A stretch of DNA of 64,000 nucleotides from positions 2,430,621-2,494,620 of the forward strand of contig NZ_LMQR01000001.1 of the NCBI RefSeq assembly GCF_001424645.1. The letters are read 5' to 3'. The number at the start of each line of letters is the position of its first letter. Within the stretch, counting starts at the first letter, position 1. The stretch comes from Frigoribacterium sp. Leaf415 (GTDB lineage Bacteria; Actinomycetota; Actinomycetes; Actinomycetales; Microbacteriaceae). The translations under genes were made by a program, and so were the position numbers. The notes beneath the pieces were generated by a model that worked only from the letters and a program-made list of their open reading frames with translations, was not told the origin of the DNA and did not search any database. Of this stretch, positions 21,285 through 23,215 are shown piece after piece.

Positions 21285-21323
21285 AGGAGGCGCGGTGTCT
21301 GCAGAGCAGGCACCGCGCCTCCT
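21285..21323. repeat. Inverted pair of the GGAGGCGCG repeat
   Basis: AGGAGGCGCGGTG (21285-21297) and its exact reverse complement (21311-21323) flank 13 bases. This is a head-to-head pair of the dispersed nonamer and could form a hairpin in the leader region of the reverse transcriptase gene. Confidence 0.75.
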
Positions 21324-21397
21324 TCGCGTCCCGGGTGGGCGCCCCGCCTGAGACGGGTTCCGCCCTGCGAGGGATCGCGGACGTCGGTGGGCGCCGT

Positions 21398-21403
21398 TAG
21401 CGT
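21398..21403 (+). promoter_or_regulatory. -10 box upstream of the reverse transcriptase locus
   Basis: TAGCGT lies six bases before an ATG at 21410, the spacing typical of leaderless starts here. It predicts an RNA beginning at about 21410, some 257 bases before the reverse transcriptase start. Confidence 0.5.
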
Positions 21404-21409
21404 GTGGGC

Positions 21410-21666
21410 ATGCGACGGTGTCTCGGCGAGGTGGACGGCACACGCGCTGTGCCTTCCTCTCCGGGGCTACCCCGGGGCACGCAGATCGACCACGGCACCG
21501 CACCGCAGGCCGGTGACCGCGCTTCGCGCGGCTCGCGGCCCGCACCGACGCACGAGTCGCCGAGGCACCGCCGCAGCCACCCGAACGCACCCGCCGCGTC
21601 AGCGGCACGAGCGGCTTGCGCCCGCACGATCGCGAGCAGCACGGCAAAGGGCATGACGGGCACCGG
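21410..21666 (+). ncRNA. Candidate retron msr-msd RNA, or a short leaderless ORF
   Basis: This stretch lies between the -10 box and the reverse transcriptase. It can form compact hairpins at 21437-21453 (GGCACA/TGTGCC, loop of five), 21461-21475 (CCGGGG/CCCCGG) and 21517-21531 (CCGCGC/GCGCGG), which fits an msr-like series, but no long msd hairpin was found by eye. The same stretch is also open from ATG 21410 for 86 codons and its stop overlaps the reverse transcriptase GTG (GTGA), which would suggest translation. Codon third positions look less GC-rich than in neighbouring genes, which favours RNA. The evidence cannot decide between the two. Confidence 0.35.
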
Positions 21667-23037
21667 GTGAGCGTCCGCTCCCCCGCGTCGGCCGCTGGCG
21701 CACACGAGCCCGACCCGGGGCCCGATGCCGTCGCGACCGTGCTCGCCGACGCCTTCCTCGGCGCGGAGTGGTCGGTCCGCGGGCTGGCCGCCGCGGCCGG
21801 CGAGGCGATCGACGGGTCCGCCCGCTTCTGGCGTCCACTCGCCCGAGACCTCGTCCACGCCCTGCCCCGAGCGCCGCTCGACGATCCCCGCACGCTCGCC
21901 GCCCTCATCCGCCGCGACCCGGCCTTCACCGAGGCGGTGGCCGAGGCCCGGAGGCGCGGCCGTCCGCTGCGCAACGTCCACCACGTGCCCGTGACGCAGG
22001 AGGCGCGCTCGGCCGACCCGCGCCTCCTGCGTCTGGGCACCGTGGCCGACGTCGCCCGCCTGCTGCACCTGACCGTGGGCGAGCTCGACTGGTTCGCCGA
22101 CCCCGGCCGGTGGCACCGCCGCGTCGACGGCGGGCCCCTGCAGCACCACCGGTACGAGTGGCGGTCGCGGCCCGGACGCACGCCACGACTGCTCGAGGTC
22201 CCCGGCTTCCGGCTGCGCGACCTGCAACGCGTCGTGCTCGACGAGGTGCTGGCGGCCGTTCCGCTGCACGATGCGGCGCACGGGTTCGTCCCCGGGCGCA
22301 GCGCGGTCACCGGTGCTCGTCGACACGTCGGCCGCGAGGTCGTGATCGCCCTCGACCTGACCTCGTTCTTCGCCCGGGTCACCGCCGGGCAGGTGTTCGG
22401 CTCCCTGCGCCGCGAGGGCCTGCCCGACGCCGTCGCCCACGTGCTCACGGGGTTGTGCACGACCTCCGTGCCGCCGGGCGTGCTCTCGCGCATGCCCCCG
22501 GGAGGCAGCCCCGAACAGCGGTTCGCCCTGCGTCACGCACTCGCCGTCGCGCATCTCGCCCAGGGCGCGCCGACCTCGCCCTCCCTCGCGAACGTCGCCG
22601 TCCGCCGACTCGACTCGCGGCTCGACGGATACGCCCGAGCCGCCGGCGCGACCTACACGCGGTACGCCGACGACCTCGCGTTCAGCGGCGACGGGACGCT
22701 CGCGGCGCGGGCCGACGCGTTCGTGCGGGGCGTGGGACGCATCGTCGGCGACGAGGGACACCTGCTCAACCAGGCCAAGACCCGGGTGCGCGGGGCGGCC
22801 ACGCGACAGGTCGTCACCGGCGTGGTGGTCAACCAGGGCACGAACACGGTGCGCTCCGAGTACGACCAGCTGCGGGCCGTGCTGCACAACGCCGCCACCA
22901 CCGGGCTCGAGGCGCAGAACCGCGCCGGGCACCCGGACTTCGCCGCCCAGCTGTGGGGGCGCATCGGCTGGGTCGAGCAGCTCCACCCCGGGCGCGGGGC
23001 CCGGCTGCGCGCCGCGTTCGCGCGCGTCCCCAGGTGA
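21667..23037 (+). CDS. Retron-type reverse transcriptase
   Basis: This 456-residue RNA-directed DNA polymerase carries the catalytic aspartates D230 (VIALDLTSFF) and YADD (Y333-D336 in YTRYADDLAFSG). Two retron hallmarks are visible: the VTG triplet (383-385) and an AXXH motif, GARRH at 216-220, where most retrons have NAXXH. QGAPTSPSLAN is the motif before YADD. A 150-residue helical N-terminal region ending VGELDWFADPGRW precedes the fingers, as in myxobacterial-type retron enzymes. I chose the GTG at 21667; no ribosome binding site is seen and it overlaps the upstream short ORF. No effector gene adjoins: the neighbours are DUF4190 and flgE. There are no group II intron maturase or HNH parts. 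Confidence 0.85.
   Translation: MSVRSPASAAGAHEPDPGPDAVATVLADAFLGAEWSVRGLAAAAGEAIDGSARFWRPLARDLVHALPRAPLDDPRTLAALIRRDPAFTEAVAEARRRGRPLRNVHHVPVTQEARSADPRLLRLGTVADVARLLHLTVGELDWFADPGRWHRRVDGGPLQHHRYEWRSRPGRTPRLLEVPGFRLRDLQRVVLDEVLAAVPLHDAAHGFVPGRSAVTGARRHVGREVVIALDLTSFFARVTAGQVFGSLRREGLPDAVAHVLTGLCTTSVPPGVLSRMPPGGSPEQRFALRHALAVAHLAQGAPTSPSLANVAVRRLDSRLDGYARAAGATYTRYADDLAFSGDGTLAARADAFVRGVGRIVGDEGHLLNQAKTRVRGAATRQVVTGVVVNQGTNTVRSEYDQLRAVLHNAATTGLEAQNRAGHPDFAAQLWGRIGWVEQLHPGRGARLRAAFARVPR
21994..22032. repeat. Inverted GGAGGCGCG pair inside the reverse transcriptase gene
   Basis: ACGCAGGAGGCGCG (21994-22007) and its exact complement (22019-22032) give 14-base arms around an 11-base spacer. It encodes TQEARSADPRLLR in the linker before the conserved domain, a place that tolerates insertion. 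Confidence 0.75.
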
Positions 23038-23129: not shown

Positions 23130-23130
23130 A

Positions 23131-23188
23131 CGGGCGGGTTCGTCGAGAGCGGGCGTCCGAAGACGCCCGCTCTCGACGAACCCGCCCG
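23131..23188. terminator. Perfect 27-bp hairpin between the convergent reverse transcriptase and flgE genes
   Basis: The arms 23131-23157 and 23162-23188 match over all 27 bases with a CGAA loop. It sits between convergent genes and can serve both as a terminator. Confidence 0.75.
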
Positions 23189-23215
23189 TCCGAGCCGGCC
23201 TGCCAGCGGCTGCGG

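Follow-up and report, generated by a model that had tools for sequence, protein, structure and literature searches.

We think it probable that a reverse transcriptase (RT) gene of Frigoribacterium sp. Leaf415 and the RNA that precedes it form a two-part retron without an effector, in which a leaderless, translated RNA couples the supply of template to the synthesis of the RT. The gene lies in the 64,000-nt stretch of DNA that we analysed (the window; coordinates are positions in it). A first-pass annotation had offered two alternative readings of the region upstream of the gene, a hairpin-rich RNA or an ORF. Each of the two readings appears to hold, the RNA through covariation of its base pairs and the ORF through its frame relation to the RT gene; the choice between them does not, because in most actinobacterial loci both are present at once. 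The features of the locus are as follows.

21398..21403, plus strand: -10 promoter element TAGCGT, with the predicted +1 at 21410 (from sequence; the pattern recurs across loci)
21410..21670, plus strand: predicted leaderless leader ORF of 86 codons and a stop, running through the RNA (frame open; overlaps the RT start)
21410..21577, plus strand: msr-msd-like structured RNA, the primary unit (covariation; match to covariance model R1)
21411..21429, plus strand: a1 arm of the closing stem (inverted repeat, covariation)
21430..21430, plus strand: predicted priming (2'-5' branch) guanosine in GAGGnG (invariant in 36/36 rows; role by analogy with retrons)
21433..21457, plus strand: msr stem-loop 1 (9 pairs, 7 with two-sided changes)
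21459..21477, plus strand: msr stem-loop 2, CUCCGGGGnnACCCCGGGG, nearly invariant (no variation at all in 5 of 8 pairs; zero two-sided changes)
21505..21543, plus strand: msd hairpin of two helices (10 pairs, 8 with two-sided changes)
21556..21556, plus strand: predicted first template base for reverse transcription, directly 5' of a2 (a1/a2 geometry; G invariant)
21557..21575, plus strand: a2 arm of the closing stem (inverted repeat, covariation)
21667..23037, plus strand: retron-type reverse transcriptase (ORF, profile matches, predicted fold)
21718..21954, plus strand: five-helix N-terminal domain of the RT, residues 18-96 (predicted structure, without a fold match)

The RT ORF extends from a GTG at 21667 to a TGA at 23037 and encodes 456 amino acids. 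It is flanked by a DUF4190 gene and by flgE on the opposite strand. A hairpin of 28 perfectly matched base pairs and a loop of 5 nt (23130-23190) lies between the RT gene and the convergent flgE and is likely a terminator shared by both. The RT and the RNA each have a single match in the genome, and the named RT relatives at 88-92% identity belong to Frigoribacterium. The RT motifs that had been pointed out earlier are in place: D230, YADD (333-336), VTG (383-385) and GARRH (216-220), the last of which we take to be the NAxxH motif of retron RTs with N replaced by G. D335, D336 and H220 are invariant in an alignment of 66 sequences, in which D230 and G385 are at least 90% conserved. VTG, plus an A and an N, is described as conserved in retron RTs (PMC4244168). 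The helical N-terminus that had also been claimed appears in the predicted structure as five helices (residues 18-96) with high pLDDT. This N-terminal extension recurs across phyla within the RT clade and is weakly conserved (columns average 35% identity over 20 sequences); a fold search with the five-helix domain returned zero matches.

Profiles and fold support the assignment of the enzyme to the retron-type RTs rather than to the group II intron, DGR or DRT enzymes. Pfam assigns RVT_1 to it. The best PADLOC profiles, RT_other (563.6 bits) and RT_outgroup (523.3 bits), are near-full-length matches and both untyped, with RT_XIII far lower at 268.7 bits, and the same ranking was obtained for 7 relatives (Actinobacteria, Acidobacteria, Planctomycetes, Paraburkholderia; four phyla). 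When the AlphaFold model (mean pLDDT 91.4) was used to search PDB folds, ranks 1-18 were all retron RTs, followed by G2L4, group II intron, DRT2 (rank 23) and DGR enzymes. Identity to the solved Ec86, Ec67 and Ec78 RTs is 19-24%. Thus, the retron-type RT of the first-pass annotation is upheld by PADLOC and NCBIfam profile scores and by the fold ranking. The clade is already present in PADLOC as a protein profile: the likeness to RT_other and RT_outgroup consists in these matches, and as far as is visible neither profile has an RNA, an effector or a type attached to it. Our analysis adds an RNA family and a leader ORF.

The leader is enclosed by a 19-nt inverted repeat (21411-21429 and 21557-21575), and the 165-nt RNA thus delimited is ordered as a1, msr hairpin 1, msr hairpin 2, msd hairpin and a2. 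Retron RNAs are described as having an a1/a2 inverted repeat of about 8-30 nt, msr hairpins and then an msd hairpin (PMC6868368), and with its repeat of 19 nt and its msr hairpins followed by an msd hairpin, the leader RNA fits this plan. Comparison across loci shows that the RNA and its fold are conserved. We aligned 36 of 68 distinct candidates, from Microbacteriaceae and Arthrobacter loci, omitting distant taxa, some near-duplicates and the oddly labelled locus L014. The RNAalifold consensus of these 36 sequences contains 44 pairs, 29 of them with compensatory changes. Paired cells make up 95.9% of the alignment's paired positions versus 80.3% after shuffling, two-sided changes number 233 versus 57, and sliding the partner columns by 1-3 lowers pairing to 42-46%. 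The RNA alone (21411-21575) has a folding energy of z = -3.0. Because a looser stretch of 206 nt folds weakly (z = -1.2), we regard covariation, not folding energy, as the decisive evidence.

Every one of the 36 rows has GAGGnG directly after a1 and GTC at the edge of a2. By analogy with retrons, in which the priming G is described as lying next to a1 (PMC6868368), these two elements are predicted to occupy the positions of the priming G and of the first template base. AG at the priming position is invariant (36/36) and is followed by G, where the usual retron (U/C/G)AGC has C. Rfam returned no family at gathering threshold across the 64-kb window and none up to E = 10 in 21300-21720. Our covariance model, R1, scores 159.6 bits at 21406-21580, the window itself being in its training set.

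The same RNA appears to be embedded in a coding frame. ATG 21410 begins 6 nt after the end of the -10 box TAGCGT (21398-21403), which places the predicted +1 on the A of this ATG. The sequence therefore agrees with the leaderless-type -10 box that had been claimed, its ATG sitting at the expected transcript start. The claimed 86-codon ORF that overlaps the RT start was also recovered (21410-21670), its TGA lying over the RT GTG as GTGA. An 88-aa reading from GTG 21404 was rejected; it has no Pfam or NCBIfam match, and in PADLOC a chance match only (E 0.67).

Comparison of upstream regions indicates that the RNA is kept by covariation and the ORF by its frame relation and its overlap with the RT start. 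The pattern TANNNT, 6 or 7 nt, then [AG]TG is found at the RNA 5' end in 50 of 73 loci (duplicates and L014, L071, L078 and L088 excluded; the counts ignore relatedness), and by chance in 126 of 40000 random 38-nt windows (0.3%). The leader frame ends in an NTGA or TGATG overlap with a start in the RT frame in 36 of the 50 pattern loci and fuses in frame to the RT in 12. Thus, 48 of the 50 pass, with L030 and L059 failing, and the other two frames pass the same test in 18 of 100 cases. The leader ORF, 56-107 codons long, is kept in many genera, and the distance from RNA to RT varies among loci while the frame relation is preserved. We also compared the openness of the frame with that of pseudo-RNAs resampled with their base pairs kept, using one gap pattern (21 of 26 rows; 10 rows without a start codon at that column were omitted). 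The leader frame was open in 21 of 21 rows versus 65.9% of the pseudo-RNAs, and the control frames were open in 13/21 and 9/21, matching their nulls of 57.5% and 46.9%. Over all 26 rows, 25 are open in the leader frame, the exception being L059. These results support the view that the leader frame is kept open beyond what the constraint on the RNA would explain, relatedness being ignored in the counts. An independent annotation also favours the overlap: the RT start annotated at L133:2698, on a Tsukamurella plasmid, forms an ATGA together with the stop codon of a leader of 57 codons. No TANNNT box precedes this leader.

The leader ORF is not found everywhere. The -10 and start pattern is missing from 23 of the 73 loci, namely 7/7 outside Actinobacteria and 16 inside, including three of the Arthrobacter agilis type, Mycetocola and the three of genus g45; the retron as such therefore needs no leader ORF. 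L046 and L052, two of these 23, lack the pattern, yet have an ATGA overlap. A further 13 loci did worse than the first set: 8 have the pattern, of which 5 pass and 3 fail (L129, L131, L132). An ATGA overlap is visible by eye in L132, where the RT frame shifts later. Among the same 13, the overlap is present without a TANNNT box in L127, L128 and L130. In the first set, one of the two control frames reads through into the RT without a stop in 16 of the 50 pattern loci; chance opening is thus common in GC-rich frames. In 34 of the 36 overlap loci, codon-position GC is 0.747/0.720/0.741 in the RNA part of the leader and 0.720/0.780/0.830 in its tail. The tail values form a weak signature; the RNA part has none, and thus the peptide is not visibly selected. 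Judging from these sequences, we think that the peptide sequence does not matter.

In the Microbacteriaceae genus g45 (three genomes; L070, L073 and L077), the RNA is encoded ahead of the RT gene, on the other strand. A palindromic -10 region, CAGCCTAGGCTG, lies between the two. The RNA strand has its own -10 box, but no start codon is present at the RNA 5' end in this one genus and its three genomes. As the RNA is divergent from the RT, it must function without being the leader of the RT. We read g45 as a natural control that, within one genus and three genomes, speaks for our proposal: where the RNA is not the RT leader, the start codon appears to be missing. The 73-locus test examined these three loci along the RT strand, opposite to the RNA.

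The lack of an adjoining effector, claimed previously, was confirmed by clustering open frames of at least 80 aa within about 6 kb in 54 loci. Only the RT is widely common (29 groups); smaller ORFs could escape this search. The next cluster consists of 16 ORFs from 10 groups, at scattered places and on either strand. Tripartite retrons are defined with an effector. Since no common neighbour lies within about 6 kb and the N-terminal domain is without a known fold, we file the locus as a retron RT with its RNA and not as a typed tripartite system. Within the genus, RT and flgE are close together on one contig in 7 of the 9 retron-bearing Frigoribacterium genomes (about 1.5 kb in G261); in the other two, a contig end falls between them (G035) or flgE has no match (G255). 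In two divergent species, the RT is 76.5-77% identical in nucleotides versus about 78-84% for long neighbouring blocks. Because of this proximity, and because RT identity is close to that of neighbouring blocks, there is no need to invoke repeated insertion within the genus. The interval before flgE was inspected in three of the seven retron-less Frigoribacterium genomes (L110, L111 and L113) and holds other genes in each. Judged by eye from the translations, two of them have a gene for a glycosyltransferase-like membrane protein there, and the third has two other genes.

Based on this arrangement, we have proposed a model for the actinobacterial loci, in which we infer the translation of the leader, its coupling to the RT, the priming site, the msDNA and its size, and autoregulation. 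A single transcript would start on the first base of the leader start codon, which would make the message leaderless; such transcripts are called common in mycobacteria (PMC4633059). Ribosomes would translate the leader ORF through the entire msr-msd and stop over the RT start codon, so that the RT would be made by termination-reinitiation; in some genera it may be made as a fusion with the leader. ATGA and TGATG overlaps are described as coupling translation in other genes (PMC6728339), and the NTGA or TGATG overlap by which coupled gene pairs are recognized is seen in 36/50 loci, translation of the leader itself being predicted. In Mycobacterium tuberculosis, a translated leader under riboswitch control is described, the gene behind it being made by termination-reinitiation (PMC11260477). 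The folded transcript may instead be bound by the RT at its 5' msr. Reverse transcription would then be primed from the invariant G adjoining a1, and the DNA copy would be very roughly 60-75 nt long. RT bound to the folded msr would block the leader start and favour reverse transcription. Since the 5' end required for RT binding is also the one required for leader translation, the RT should limit its own synthesis.

An extension of this model is speculative, and we consider it rather unlikely: the retron may be wired to host translation, with the same 165 nt serving as template, msr scaffold and leaderless coding sequence. Ribosomes would keep the RNA unfolded and make RT; were translation to falter, as in a phage take-over, the RNA would fold, RT already present would capture it, and msDNA would be made. 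If this were true, no separate regulator would be needed and translation would be sensed directly.

Other explanations have to be weighed against the coupled retron. The locus could be a plain lone retron, in which the RNA is real, the ORF results incidentally from GC-rich composition, and the RT has a weak start site of its own beyond a2. The missing codon signature in the RNA part agrees with this, as do the non-actinobacterial and some actinobacterial relatives without the ORF, and 5-nt Shine-Dalgarno matches fail to separate leader loci (3/34: L002, L006, L027) from non-leader loci (2/12: L015, L018). However, the frame relation, the overlap and the openness exceed those of control frames, the start codon coincides with the predicted +1, and the divergent RNAs of g45 have no start codon; we therefore think a plain lone retron unlikely. 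It is far less probable still that the leader peptide is the functional product, for example a missing effector or an antidote, with the RNA structure secondary. An ORF of 56-107 codons kept in many genera would suit such a peptide, but the tail varies freely in length and sequence, the conserved peptide stretches coincide with RNA hairpins, and base-pair covariation is strong.

DRT systems likewise combine a stand-alone RT, a structured RNA and an additional domain, and the locus might be another defence RT that depends on a non-coding RNA. The RT profile scores, the fold ranking (retron RTs at 1-18, DRT2 at 23), the VTG motif and the combination of a1/a2 with an msd-type hairpin argue against this, and we give it very little weight. 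A last alternative concerns function and is compatible with the coupled retron: the five-helix domain fused to the RT may be the effector or sensor of a single-gene defence retron, in which case no neighbour would be needed. The recurrence of the N-terminal extension across phyla in the clade and the lack of a neighbour common to 54 loci are in its favour, whereas the domain has neither a fold match nor a catalytic motif that we could see, and the low column identity of the extension (35%, 20 sequences) also tells against it. We hold it as a tentative possibility with a real but less than even chance.

Retron RNAs are treated as non-coding and as something apart from the RT gene. In the literature searched, neither this RNA nor any translated retron RNA is described, and Mestre 2020 and Khan 2024 may list the RNA. 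Among known systems, the myxobacterial retrons Mx162, Mx65, Sa163 and Ne144 are described as having RTs with an extended N-terminus, as here (PMC6868368), and for Mx162 and Sa163 vertical inheritance is described there as likely. By description, their priming sites, CAGC in Mx162 and Sa163 and GAGC in Mx65, set them apart from the invariant GAGGnG, and unlike the retron here, they are not credited with a leader ORF in the relevant parts of PMC6868368. Ec86, Ec67, Ec78 and others of Escherichia coli share the RT fold and the RNA plan (a1/a2, msr hairpins, msd hairpin), but act with effectors, whereas the retron here has no adjacent effector gene. Retron-Bth1, compared by its description, likewise has an unclassified RT and no obvious effector, but carries a group II intron within its RT gene (PMC12548924). 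In DRT2, a so-called non-coding RNA carries coding information, as the RNA here may do; there, however, the coding gene is described as arising from cDNA, as a repetitive gene (PMC12039810), whereas in our case translation would act on the RNA itself and precede copying. The ppe2 leader of M. tuberculosis is a structured actinobacterial leader RNA with a uORF and reinitiation (PMC11260477) and resembles ours in this, but it is a ligand switch, whereas our RNA is a predicted template for reverse transcription.

A widespread retron clade without a common effector thus gains a defined RNA, so that its msDNA can be tested for directly. In actinobacteria this RNA seems to double as the 5'-terminal coding stretch of the RT mRNA, and this offers a concrete and cheap test of the balance between template and enzyme in a retron. 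The actinobacterial RT-RNA pairs might also serve as editing parts in GC-rich hosts.

R1 finds the RNA beside the RT in 38 of 40 sources (the window being among the training sequences) and misses it in L078 and L086. The RT carried by L086 is distant. The model also finds the RNA in 13 of 13 new class-level loci and in 3 of the 4 plasmid loci examined, out of 6 plasmid matches. The RNA thus lies beside RT relatives in Actinobacteria, Acidobacteria, Planctomycetes and Burkholderiales. Within the genus, the RT is present in 9 of 16 genomes and the RNA in those same 9; RT relatives were detected in 30 of 249 genomes of the family and in 14 of 394 genomes of the class, the own genome counted. The acidobacterial RT of L048 has at least 7,996 scored relatives; among the 120 matches listed, identity is 57-100%, the named relatives are Acidobacteria, and no myxobacterial RT is named. 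L014, labelled Vibrio cholerae 35D, has an Arthrobacter-like retron locus and is probably mislabelled or contaminated. The RT frame is interrupted or shifted in L041 and L132, and some copies therefore look degenerate. Finally, L133 is a 250-kb Tsukamurella plasmid and L134 a 47-kb Dietzia plasmid on which the retron adjoins merA; thus, the retron can reside on plasmids.
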